Shown: positions 31,700 to 37,370 of the stretch, piece after piece
Position numbering within the stretch: position 1 is the stretch's first letter
Layout: every line of letters begins with the position of its first letter
Origin: Bacteroidota bacterium
GTDB lineage: Bacteria; Bacteroidota; Bacteroidia; JABEUT01
Length of the DNA stretch: 41,589 nucleotides
NCBI GenBank assembly: GCA_013289395.1
Contig: JABCZY010000008.1
Coordinates: forward strand, 1-41,589
Reading direction: 5' to 3'
Program-made: the position numbers and the translations under genes
The notes under the pieces: generated by a model
Told to the model about the DNA's origin: nothing
Seen by the model: only the letters and a program-made list of their open reading frames with translations
Databases searched by the model: none

Positions 31700-33289
31700 A
31701 TGAACTTTAAGAAAACGTCTATCTCTTTCGAAGAAACAGGTTTCTCAAAAGTATTTACCGATTACATAAAAGGCGAAAATTATCTCGCCCCTTTCTATAC
31801 CTACCAGCCTTCATTAGCCGGATTTAAAAAAGCAATTGAAGATAGAAGCAATGCAAATTGTGACCGAAGTGTTTTAGTAAAAGCATTAAAGGGAAGGTAT
31901 AAAAATGCATCAGATGCTACTCAAAAAAATATTGCACTGCTTGACGAAAAAAAAACATTTACCGTTACAACAGGCCACCAGTTATGCCTTTTCACAGGCC
32001 CGCTCTATTTTATTTATAAAATAGTTACCGTTATAAATTTAGCAGAAGCATTAAAGAAAGAATACCCGCAATACAATTTTGTACCGGTGTATTGGATGGC
32101 AGGTGAGGACCACGATTTTGCAGAAATAAACCACACATACCTGTATGGCAAAAAGGTAGAGTGGAGTGCTGATAGCCTTTCCGGAGGGCCTGTTGGAAGG
32201 ATATCGATCGAGACGCTGGCGCCTGTGTTAGAAGGACTTTTTTCGATAATGGGTGAAAACGAAAAAGCAATCGAACTAAAGAAAATATTGGCTGAAGCAT
32301 ATAGCGGAAAAAAGAATTTAGGTGATGCAACATTTGATTTTGTAAACTCACTTTTCGGAAAGTATGGCCTCGTAATAGCTGACCCCGATAATGCTGAACT
32401 GAAGAAACTATTTGTACCTGTAATAACCGATGAGCTTATTAACCAGGGCTCATTTAAAGCAGTAACAGCAACCGATAAGCAACTTGCAGCGTTTGGTATT
32501 GAACCGCAAATACATGCCAGGGAAATAAATCTTTTTTATGTAAATGAAAAGGGACGTAACCGTATTGAAAAGCAGGGAGAGAATTACCATGTTGTAAATG
32601 CAGGACTGAATTTTACAAAAGAACAGATACTTACAGAAGTGCAACAGAACCCTGAACGGTTCAGCCCGAATGTTGTGCTGCGCCCAGTATATCAGCAAAT
32701 CATTTTGCCTAATATTGCTTATATAGGCGGCCCGGCCGAAGTGGCTTACTGGCTGCAATTAAAAGCAAGTTTCGATTATCATAAAGCGCAATTTCCGGTG
32801 CTTATGCCACGCAACTTTGCCATGATAATTGATAAAGGTACTGCAAGCAAAATGGAGAAACTGAAACTGAATGCGAAAAGTATTTTTGGTGATACTGAAG
32901 AACTGGTAAAGGGATTTGTGACAGGAAATAATGCAATGGATTTTGAACAAGAGAAGGAAAAACTGAAAGGTGTATATGACACTATAGCAGAAAAAATAAA
33001 GACTATTGACCCTACGCTTGTTGCAACGGCTGATGCCGAACTGCAAAAACAGTATAACGCTTTAAAGGTTATTGAAACCAAACTTGTTCGTGCGCAAAAA
33101 CAAAAGGATGAAACCTCTGTTAACCAGATACGGAAGATCAAAGAAAAACTTTTCCCTGATGGATCTTTACAGGAACGACACGATAGCTTTATTCCGTTTT
33201 ACCTGCAATATGGTGCAGAGTTTATAGACTTGCTCAGAAAGGAATTTAACCCTTTTGAGTACAAAATGGCAGTAATAACTGAGGAATAA
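31700..33289 (+). CDS. bshC: Bacillithiol biosynthesis cysteine-adding enzyme BshC
   Basis: A 529-aa protein of the BshC (YllA) family, which joins cysteine to glucosaminyl-malate in the last step of bacillithiol synthesis. Signatures: TGHQLCLFTGPLYFIYKI (about 92-109), VPVYWMAGEDHDFAEINH (about 128-145) and RPVYQQIILPNIAYIGGPAE, followed by a long coiled-coil segment (about 420-500: KIKTIDPTLVATADAELQKQ) characteristic of the family. Length is typical. It lies 5 nt after rimO and is co-transcribed. bshA and bshB are not in the window. Confidence 0.95.
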   Translation: MNFKKTSISFEETGFSKVFTDYIKGENYLAPFYTYQPSLAGFKKAIEDRSNANCDRSVLVKALKGRYKNASDATQKNIALLDEKKTFTVTTGHQLCLFTGPLYFIYKIVTVINLAEALKKEYPQYNFVPVYWMAGEDHDFAEINHTYLYGKKVEWSADSLSGGPVGRISIETLAPVLEGLFSIMGENEKAIELKKILAEAYSGKKNLGDATFDFVNSLFGKYGLVIADPDNAELKKLFVPVITDELINQGSFKAVTATDKQLAAFGIEPQIHAREINLFYVNEKGRNRIEKQGENYHVVNAGLNFTKEQILTEVQQNPERFSPNVVLRPVYQQIILPNIAYIGGPAEVAYWLQLKASFDYHKAQFPVLMPRNFAMIIDKGTASKMEKLKLNAKSIFGDTEELVKGFVTGNNAMDFEQEKEKLKGVYDTIAEKIKTIDPTLVATADAELQKQYNALKVIETKLVRAQKQKDETSVNQIRKIKEKLFPDGSLQERHDSFIPFYLQYGAEFIDLLRKEFNPFEYKMAVITEE

Positions 33290-34847: not shown

Positions 34848-35654
34848 ATGAGGAAAATAGTAATTGTCGTTTGTATCTTATTTGTCGCTTCTTATGACTT
34901 AATTGGTCAAACCTGGGTGCCAGTAGGTAGTGGTGTAAATAATACTGTAAATGCATTGGATAGTGTTAATGGCGTACTTTATGTTGGTGGCGACTTTGAT
35001 TCAGCAGGGGGAGCTCCGGTTCACTACATTGGAGCCTGGAATGGAAATTCATGGTCTGCGTTGGACAGCGGATTGAATAGTAACGTATATGCTTTAGCAG
35101 AATATAAGGGGAATCTGATTGCTGCGGGAGGTTTTACAAAGGCAGGAGGAATTACAGCAAATAAAATAGCTATGTGGAATGGCTCTACATGGTCAGCTCT
35201 AGGTACTGGCTTGAATAATACAGTTTATTCTCTGACCGTTTACAATGGCAATTTAATTGCATCAGGAGATTTTACCACGGCAGGGGGCGTTGCAGTCAAT
35301 CATATAGCAAGTTGGAATGGCACATCCTGGGATTCTCTTGGAGGAGGTTTAAACAGCTTTGCGGTTTTAGCTGTTTTTGACAGCTGCCTGTATGCAGGTG
35401 GCAGGTTTACAATTGCGGGTCACGATTCCGCCAAGCTAATTGCAAAATGGAACGGCACGTCCTGGGATTCCTTGGGTGGAATAACTATTCATCCTCCAGG
35501 GTTCTGTGGCCCGGAAGATTATGTAGGAGCCTTAGGTGTTTATCAAAACCAACTTTACATGGGGAGGCCAGATACACCTACCGTATGGAATGGTAATTCA
35601 TGGAATTTTTCTGTAGGTCCCATGTATTATACAGACGTTTTTTTTTCCTTATGA
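34848..35654 (+). CDS. T9SS beta-propeller protein, N-terminal fragment (frameshifted)
   Basis: The first part (268 aa) of a gene that is split by a frameshift. The start at ATG 34848 (MRKIVIV) gives a signal peptide ending LIGQ. The body is built of five to six repeats of about 43 residues with the pattern WNG-x-SW-x-x-LG-x-G-L-N, VYALAEYKGNLIAAGGFTKAGG and IAxWNG, a kelch- or Rax2-like propeller. The frame ends with VFFSL-stop directly after a T9 run (35638-35646). Removing one T joins it to the next frame (VFFPYEGVFLDGGG) and restores the propeller and sorting domain. Confidence 0.82.
   Translation: MRKIVIVVCILFVASYDLIGQTWVPVGSGVNNTVNALDSVNGVLYVGGDFDSAGGAPVHYIGAWNGNSWSALDSGLNSNVYALAEYKGNLIAAGGFTKAGGITANKIAMWNGSTWSALGTGLNNTVYSLTVYNGNLIASGDFTTAGGVAVNHIASWNGTSWDSLGGGLNSFAVLAVFDSCLYAGGRFTIAGHDSAKLIAKWNGTSWDSLGGITIHPPGFCGPEDYVGALGVYQNQLYMGRPDTPTVWNGNSWNFSVGPMYYTDVFFSL
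35638..35646 (+). other. T9 homopolymer at the frameshift point
   Basis: Nine T in a row inside the propeller gene. With eight T the upstream and downstream frames join. The run could be a sequencing or assembly error, or a slipped-strand switch. Confidence 0.85.
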
Positions 35655-35658
35655 AGGA

Positions 35659-36180
35659 GTGTTTCTGGATGGAGGCGGATATGGTATAGGAGGATGTAGC
35701 AATACAACTGGAGGAGGAATAAATATTTGCATGAATTGCGGGCCTTGTGCGGGGAATACACCACTATTCTTTATATACGCCATTGCAGGGTATAACGGAC
35801 ATATATATGCAGGTGGTAATTTTCTTGCGTCGTATAGCAGCACACCTTACGGTAATTTTTCCAGTACAGGCAATCCTGCCAGTTACCTTGAAGAGTACAC
35901 GGGCATTGTTGGTATAAATGAAATGAATAATATCAGCAGAAAGATTTCAATATTCCCTAACCCAAGCAAAGGCATTTTCAATATTCAATTACAGGGAATA
36001 AATGAGAAAACGGAAATTCATATTTATAACTTGCTTGGTGAGAATATTTGCAATACCCAAATTAACACCAACACAACCAAAATTGATTTGACTAGTCAAC
36101 CTCCAGGTACTTATTTATACCGTATAGTTTCTGAAAAAGGAGAAGCAATTGGAAGCGGTAAGCTTATAATTAGCCAATAA
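35659..36180 (+). CDS. T9SS beta-propeller protein, C-terminal fragment with sorting domain
   Basis: The downstream part (173 aa) of the frameshifted gene; the frame is open from before 35647 and the first possible start codon here is GTG 35659. It holds a Gly/Cys-rich stretch (GGCSNTTGGGINICMNCGPC), one more propeller strand (AIAGYNGHIYAGGNFL), and a complete type A T9SS sorting domain: ISIFPNPSKGIFNIQL, IYNLLGENI and PPGTYLYRIVSEKG. Alone it has no signal peptide, so it could be exported only when fused to the upstream fragment. Confidence 0.8.
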   Translation: MFLDGGGYGIGGCSNTTGGGINICMNCGPCAGNTPLFFIYAIAGYNGHIYAGGNFLASYSSTPYGNFSSTGNPASYLEEYTGIVGINEMNNISRKISIFPNPSKGIFNIQLQGINEKTEIHIYNLLGENICNTQINTNTTKIDLTSQPPGTYLYRIVSEKGEAIGSGKLIISQ

Positions 36181-36308
36181 AAACCTGCCTTTTCGTTACC
36201 AATAAATTTTAGTAAATGAAAATGCTTTAAAGCGCTTGATAATCAAATACTTGAAAAATATTGACTGTGGATTTTAGCAATTGAGGTCATTGTATTTTAT
36301 TGTTATTA

Positions 36309-36337
36309 TCAATGGAAGCGAAGCTTCCATTGATTTT
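36309..36337 (+). terminator. Perfect hairpin, possible terminator
   Basis: TCAATGGAAGC and GCTTCCATTGA form a perfect 11-bp stem with a GAA loop, followed by TTTT on the plus strand. It lies 129 bp after the T9SS gene. The 284-bp gap 36181-36464 holds this hairpin and a -7 box, and no gene. Confidence 0.5.
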
Positions 36338-36390
36338 CGGGTTGTTGAAAACCCTATCACTATTCCGAAATAAAAAGGTAGCCCTGCAAC

Positions 36391-36398
36391 TAACTTTG
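36391..36398 (+). promoter_or_regulatory. Predicted -7 element of the DUF5681 gene
   Basis: TAACTTTG, an exact TAnnTTTG match, 66 bp before the ATG at 36465. The -33 element is not clear. Confidence 0.4.
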
Positions 36399-36464
36399 TA
36401 TTATTAAATCCACTCAATAAAGCAGAATCACCCGATTCGCTTTATGACAAGAAAATAAAATACA

Positions 36465-36803
36465 ATGCCATTTACAAAAGGAGAATCAGGCAACCCTGAA
36501 GGCAGGCCTGTAGGTTCGCAGAACAAAAGGAAAAAGCAATTACGGGAAATGATAGAGAATTTCCTGGTCAATAATTTTGAAGCCGTAGTAGAAGAAATAA
36601 ACACCATGTCCAGCAAGGACAAAATAAAATTCTACGTTGAGATGTTACCCTATGGCCTTGGGAAAGTCCGCGCCGAAAGCGGCGATATCAATCTTGATCG
36701 CCTTACCGAGCAGGAGATAGATGAGATATTTGAGAAACTCAAAGATGTTGCTACCAAAACCATTGAGGAAACTACGAGGAGTTATGCGATTAGGCCAGGA
36801 TGA
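36465..36803 (+). CDS. DUF5681-domain protein (phage terminase-associated type), orphan
   Basis: A 112-aa cytoplasmic protein. The N-terminal FTKGESGNPEGRPVGSQNKR is the hallmark of DUF5681, a basic motif frequent in small proteins next to phage terminase or transposon genes. The rest is helical and acidic (LTEQEIDEIFEKL). No terminase, portal, integrase or transposase lies nearby, so it appears as an orphan. It is flanked on the right by a 567-bp repeat mosaic, which suggests accessory DNA. The role is unknown; DNA binding through the Gly/Arg/Lys motif is a guess. Confidence 0.75.
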   Translation: MPFTKGESGNPEGRPVGSQNKRKKQLREMIENFLVNNFEAVVEEINTMSSKDKIKFYVEMLPYGLGKVRAESGDINLDRLTEQEIDEIFEKLKDVATKTIEETTRSYAIRPG

Positions 36804-36879
36804 GGCGAAAACAAATGCTGAATGTTTAATTTTTAATGTTGAATGAAAGGACTGAGGATGTTAGATAGATAAAAGTAAC

Positions 36880-36913
36880 GTCCTCCCTTTTAGGGGAGGA
36901 AATGAGGTGGGGC
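36880..36913. repeat. Dispersed intergenic repeat, copy 2 (GTCCTCCC...GGTGGGGC)
   Basis: GTCCTCCC, TTTTA, GGGGAGGA, AATG, AGGTGGGGC: the same element order as 12485-12516, with changes mainly in the loop and the short linker. Confidence 0.6.
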
Positions 36914-37188
36914 GGTAAAAGAAGGCCTTCGACCACCGAGGATTCGGGACAGGCAAGCTAAGGGTGGTTAGCTGCAATTTATTTGTTCTTTTATCTTGAT
37001 ATAAAAGAACCAAAAGATCAAGACAGCCGAAGGTGATCCTGACTTTAAGGTCAGGACCGAATCATGAACAGCAGCCCAGCCAAAGCGCTGGATATTTCGC
37101 CGCTGCTTCCTGATTCTTCACTGACGCCTGTCTATTCTTCTCCTTTTGGGAGAAGTAAAACGTAATCTCACTGTATTTGGAAATAGGC

Positions 37189-37253
37189 AAAAGGTGGGCG
37201 CGGGTTAGCTGCAAATGATGCGAGTATAGGAAACACAGGCAAGCAGGGAGCAA
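37189..37253. repeat. 65-bp dispersed intergenic repeat, copy B
   Basis: Differs from copy A (14460-14524) at three of 65 positions, same orientation, about 22.7 kb away. The similarity fades on both sides, although a TATTTG-like left flank is shared. Confidence 0.8.
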
Positions 37254-37370
37254 ATGACGCCCCGCCTAAGGAAGCCCCAAAATAAAGAATGATGTTGGGG
37301 TAGCAGAAGCCCAAAATTTTAGGTAAGAAATAGCCATTTTAATTGCATATTTGCAGCCCAAAACGCCCTG

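Follow-up and report, generated by a model that had tools for sequence, protein, structure and literature searches.

Positions 34848-36180 of the window (the whole 41,589-nucleotide stretch of DNA analysed, which is all of contig C8 in a draft assembly, from an uncultured Bacteroidota bacterium, of 1.87 Mb, 112 contigs and 52% completeness) hold one gene for a 443-aa T9SS cargo protein, composed of a predicted signal peptide, a seven-bladed propeller and a C-terminal Por_Secre_tail domain, and split by a +1 shift into two overlapping frames. The reading that we favour, with moderate confidence, is that this single propeller gene is out of frame (OFF) in the consensus through a recent and in principle reversible slip at a run of nine T residues (T9). 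The features of the locus are as follows.

34848 to 35654, + strand: frame A, with the signal peptide, blades 1 to 5 and the first part of blade 6 (ORF list, Pfam and paralogue alignment)
34848 to 34907, + strand: predicted Sec signal peptide, MRKIVIVVCILFVASYDLIG, read by eye from the translation
35617 to 36180, + strand: frame B, which continues blade 6 and adds blade 7 and the T9SS sorting domain (ORFs and blade map of a paralogue model)
35617 to 35651 (35 nt), + strand: the sole stretch open in both frames, frame B opening at 35617 and frame A stopping at 35652
35638 to 35646, + strand: T9 homopolymer, presumed to be where the slip occurred; it lies in the V-F-F codons of blade 6, first strand
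35950 to 36171, + strand: Por_Secre_tail (PF18962), type A T9SS sorting domain (Pfam 5.6e-14)

Frame A begins with an ATG at 34848, ends at a stop codon at 35652-35654 and matches the Rax2 propeller in Pfam (4.2e-8); frame B, which lies at +1 relative to frame A, is open from 35617 to a stop codon at 36178-36180 and holds the sorting domain, scored at 52.6 bits against a Pfam cut-off of 27. The N-termini of the paralogues carry similar hydrophobic leaders, which end before (A/G)Q-W in the alignment. The locus resembles known T9SS type A cargo (Por_Secre_tail, PF18962 / TIGR04183) in having a signal peptide, a surface-type domain and a C-terminal sorting domain above cut-off; it differs in that signal peptide and export signal lie in different frames of the consensus, where no single protein contains both (frame A stops at 35652), whereas intact paralogues unite the two. 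A second lesion was not found: neither fragment has an extra stop or frame break, the sorting domain is full length, and the paralogue alignment shows conserved motifs retained in both halves. The first-pass annotation had likewise placed signal peptide and propeller in one frame and the sorting domain in the next, and its view that both fragments are otherwise intact and decay is not advanced agrees with these results. Downstream of the gene, the stretch 36181-37370 is ORF-poor except for a lone DUF5681-domain ORF at 36465-36803.

The same genome contains at least eight paralogous propeller loci, and the T9SS-tailed paralogues are single frames of 441-462 aa in this genome and 437-460 aa in its relatives, spanning both parts with about equal spacing between homologous blocks. 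Because full-length paralogues of 437-462 aa exist intact, the window locus must be a single gene. Read through the run, it gives a 443-aa product that aligns with the paralogues from end to end, and homology continues up to the T run and restarts directly beyond it (WNGNSWNF / VFFPYEGVFLDGGG versus WNGTSWSA / VYALTVYNGNLIVGG). A structure model of a paralogue (pLDDT 88) comprises seven four-stranded blades, the last of which is closed by the N-terminal strand, and on this model the break falls in blade 6, at its first strand. Fragment B accordingly comprises the greater part of blade 6 together with blade 7 and the sorting domain, about two blades rather than the single last propeller strand initially assigned to the downstream frame. 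Rax2/kelch-like propellers and PorZ are likewise multi-bladed with four-stranded blades, and the best structural match is the T9SS component PorZ (PDB 5m11); with TM-scores of about 0.5 and identity under 20%, this is a fold-level match, and identity as PorZ was rejected. The closest relatives found are paralogue-like copies that are about 50-56% identical. A scan of genome contigs for propeller relatives returned only distant ones (24-45% identity), a synteny search for an orthologue located relatives of the upstream DUF5723 gene in most of the genus with no propeller in the adjacent ~1.5 kb examined, and no internal split was seen in the other sampled copies of the propeller family. The assembly of the window genome (G000; half-complete, 1.9 Mb) also encodes about 90 Por_Secre_tail proteins above cut-off, an unusually large T9SS cargo set.

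The break must fall within 35617-35651, because the two frames overlap only there. As frame B is at +1 of frame A, deletion of one T joins both, and removing one T from 35638-35646 does fuse them into 443 aa, as had been proposed. With 22 runs of at least nine A or T residues in the 1.87-Mb assembly, the chance that such a 35-nt zone contains one is about 3e-4; chance co-location would be expected only about three times in 10,000, and the T9 run is therefore very probably the place where the break arose. In this respect the locus is as expected of an SSR contingency gene, in that a one-base change in repeat length would switch the reading frame, the T9 being situated in the only possible break zone.

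A break at a homopolymer in an assembly that is draft and incomplete (112 contigs, 52% complete) could reflect an error in sequencing or assembly, the true gene being in frame, since homopolymers are the commonest site of indel errors; the GeneTack authors regard singleton frame transitions in conserved genes as products of sequencing error and not as real indels (PMC3711429). The behaviour of comparable runs in the same genome makes this explanation less probable. Within 559 kb, 66 of 67 in-ORF A/T runs of at least 8 keep frame and only the window T9 breaks it (1/67; 95% interval 0.04-8%), the in-frame set consisting of 56 8-mers, nine other 9-mers and one 10-mer, so that every other in-ORF 9- or 10-mer is in frame. 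The nearest control is the following.

31947 to 31955, + strand: A9 in the intact bshC gene (31700-33289), whose BshC Pfam domains cover residues 5-527 of 529 aa

This run lies 3.7 kb from the window T9 and keeps frame, and 9- and 10-mers are also intact in an ECF sigma factor, RecJ, an O-antigen ligase and a CoaBC-type flavoprotein. Two further apparent splits at 8-mers in this genome (L247 and L320) were rejected as low-complexity or short spurious ORFs. Because 66 in-gene runs keep frame, the assembly is not generally poor at A/T runs, and gross assembly error at such runs is unlikely. T9SS genes make up roughly a tenth of the genome (a rough estimate from the approximately 90 tails), and a random error hitting one of them would be mildly unlikely. 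Sequencing error, put forward at first as the simplest alternative, has thus become less likely, although a single error may have occurred at this run.

If the break is a real slip, the T run would be one base off its in-frame length, most likely through a recent replication slip; the slip is called recent because the fragments bear no further lesions and the sorting domain is complete. Translation would end after blade 5 and the start of blade 6, giving a product that retains the Sec signal peptide and lacks both the closed propeller and the C-terminal sorting domain. Because the signal peptide is kept and the sorting domain lost, this product should enter the periplasm without then being exported by the T9SS, and would probably be degraded. 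The sorting domain is what is lost, in line with the first-pass suggestion that a slip would separate the protein from its export signal. Another one-base slip would restore the frame, and since a one-base change is reversible, ON and OFF cells could coexist; RNA polymerase may also slip at the T9, yielding some full-length protein even in the OFF state. The probabilities given to the readings overlap, as a real slip includes both a selected switch and plain decay, and transcriptional slippage can add to either.

Plain decay is the strongest competitor, less probable than a reversible slip taken as a whole and more probable than the other readings: the gene may be a pseudogene, redundant within its large T9SS family, that took a recent unselected frameshift and is heading for loss. 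Such redundancy is suggested by the at least eight paralogous loci and by the approximately 90 T9SS tails of an assembly that covers half the genome, and in the genus some T9SS genes are broken at sites with no homopolymer (L113, L114 and L115, and further short tails). Given these tract-free breaks, decay of a dispensable copy would also fit the locus, which weakens the favoured reading. Against decay stand the absence of a second lesion and the conserved motifs in both halves, and the break, because it is located at the T run, is still revertible.

Rescue by transcriptional slippage would leave the gene productive in its present form, with the T9 giving some transcripts one base shorter and hence full-length protein from an out-of-frame gene. 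Selection against slippage has been found in many bacteria at a length of nine A or T residues, and in ‘pseudo pseudogenes’ a frameshift turns 8 A into a slippery 9 while the product is still made (Baranov et al. 2005, PMC1088944). The run at the break has exactly this slippery length, and, as in the published cases (A8 to A9), the frameshift would have extended an A/T run to nine. In-frame 9-mers in other genes of this genome, however, carry no obvious penalty, and we regard such rescue as unlikely.

A wider view of the locus comes from poly-G tracts in eleven genomes of the genus, with a single genome for each species, in which 8 of 17 in-gene sense-strand G runs of at least 9 lie at a frame break. 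The corresponding figure is 39/2785 for random coding positions (p about 7e-11) and 2/30 for A/T runs (p about 0.002), the latter being an unmatched comparison in which the A/T sample covers the window genome and two relatives and the G sample all eleven genomes. The eight broken genes comprise six T9SS cargo genes, found in four relatives, and two RHS-like genes; they are listed with two G tracts of the window genome itself.

G004:C10 (L111:818-1850): T9SS type A cargo, split at G10
G007:C56 (L243:3113-4907): T9SS type A cargo, DUF7948/SBBP, split at G9
G003:C18 (L242), - strand: T9SS type A cargo, split at G9
G003:C12 (L241), - strand: T9SS type A cargo, split at G10
G005:C121 (L227:3584-4728): T9SS type A cargo, split at G9
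G007:C17 (L229:1939-5860): SprB-repeat/PKD protein with CHU_C T9SS tail, split at G10, SprB repeats on either side
G007:C71 (L215): large RHS/YD-repeat-like secreted-type protein, broken at G10
G003:C35 (L220): large RHS/YD-repeat-like secreted-type protein, broken at G9
G000:C25:12123-12132 (L175): G9 in frame in a propeller paralogue of the window genome, codons of a conserved blade GGG
G000:C14 near 7908 (L323:15-894): GT17-type glycosyltransferase of the window genome, beside a GT2-like gene, out of frame at G7

In the five type A cargo genes (G004, G007:C56, both in G003, and G005), the signal-peptide frame and the sorting-domain frame part exactly at the G9-G10 tract. On their contigs the six cargo tracts stand at 43426 (G004:C10), 7866 (G007:C56), 30990 (G007:C17), 7655 (G003:C18), 48274 (G003:C12) and 14190 (G005:C121). 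With six cargo genes broken at G9-G10, the T9SS cargo class of the genus is prone to homopolymer frame breaks. Within G003 and G007, a tract is present in about 3/8 broken versus about 1/166 intact T9SS genes (p about 3e-4, a rough value, the broken set having been judged by hand); this contrast shows that the tracts cause breaks in T9SS genes and says nothing on selection keeping them. G tracts could also be more error-prone in sequencing. Compared with synonymous shuffles, which predict about 1 per Mb for the sense strand, G runs of at least 9 are not in excess overall, and because that excess is absent, the argument for switching rests on the frame breaks and not on tract counts. Several candidates were set aside during this survey: L252, split at an A/T run, consists of two adjacent similar genes; L259, likewise at an A/T run, consists of short spurious ORFs; L286, a PMT-type glycosyltransferase, is probably truly broken, though probably not at its A9; and L219, with a G10 at the extreme end of a DUF2807 gene, was omitted as doubtful. 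G/C tracts of 9-12 also occur shortly upstream of large secreted or T9SS-tailed genes (L239, L240, L244 and L212) and could be promoter-spacing tracts.

From these genomic patterns, poly-G switching of T9SS cargo looks plausible in the genus, and the pattern suggests, falling short of proof, that surface proteins are switched on and off. The further step, that the window T9 is itself a contingency tract selected to switch its propeller as one of a homopolymer-switched T9SS cargo set, is doubtful. It draws on the 8/17 G tracts at frame breaks, on the secreted or surface type of all eight broken genes, on four intact cytoplasmic or phage genes with G tracts, on in-frame G tracts in other T9SS genes, including the propeller paralogue L175, and on the GT17 glycosyltransferase of the same genome that is out of frame at G7. 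On the other side, the contrast between surface genes and the four intact non-surface genes with tracts of at least 9 is by itself not significant (p = 0.077), the window tract is T and not G, and the other family copies sampled have no internal split. A/T runs in the whole assembly fall off geometrically with length (163 of 8, 20 of 9 and 2 of 10) and show no length excess; the T9 is an ordinary run length for this genome, not the unusual length expected of a contingency tract, and the propeller family (55 ORFs) has no excess of homopolymers over synonymous-codon shuffles. Selected phase variation at the T9 tract, raised when the split was first noticed, is not supported. Only tentatively can it be proposed that the genus runs homopolymer phase variation over its T9SS surface proteome, propellers and SprB-repeat proteins among others, mostly through poly-G of at least 9, with the window T9 as a less typical switch.

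Phase variation in Bacteroidota is best known from DNA inversions. The window gene resembles the SSR surface genes of Neisseria and Campylobacter, in which a surface-protein gene is switched by a one-base change in a homopolymer within its coding region. Poly-G of at least 9 is typical of those genes, as it is in the relatives of the window genome, whereas the window tract is a T9 of ordinary length read from one consensus, and its cargo is T9SS-exported and belongs to Bacteroidota. No account of T9SS cargo that varies in phase through homopolymers turned up in a search of the open literature, which is weak evidence of novelty, most subscription journals lying outside the coverage of that search.

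The split of the window gene by itself is ordinary. In annotation, split genes of this kind show up as two pieces, one with the signal peptide and the other a sorting domain on its own, which serves as a warning to annotators. If T9SS cargo is indeed switched by homopolymer slips in free-living Bacteroidota, draft assemblies would contain many T9SS ‘pseudogenes’ that are OFF alleles and not products of decay, and surface diversity in these bacteria would arise by the route used by host-adapted pathogens.
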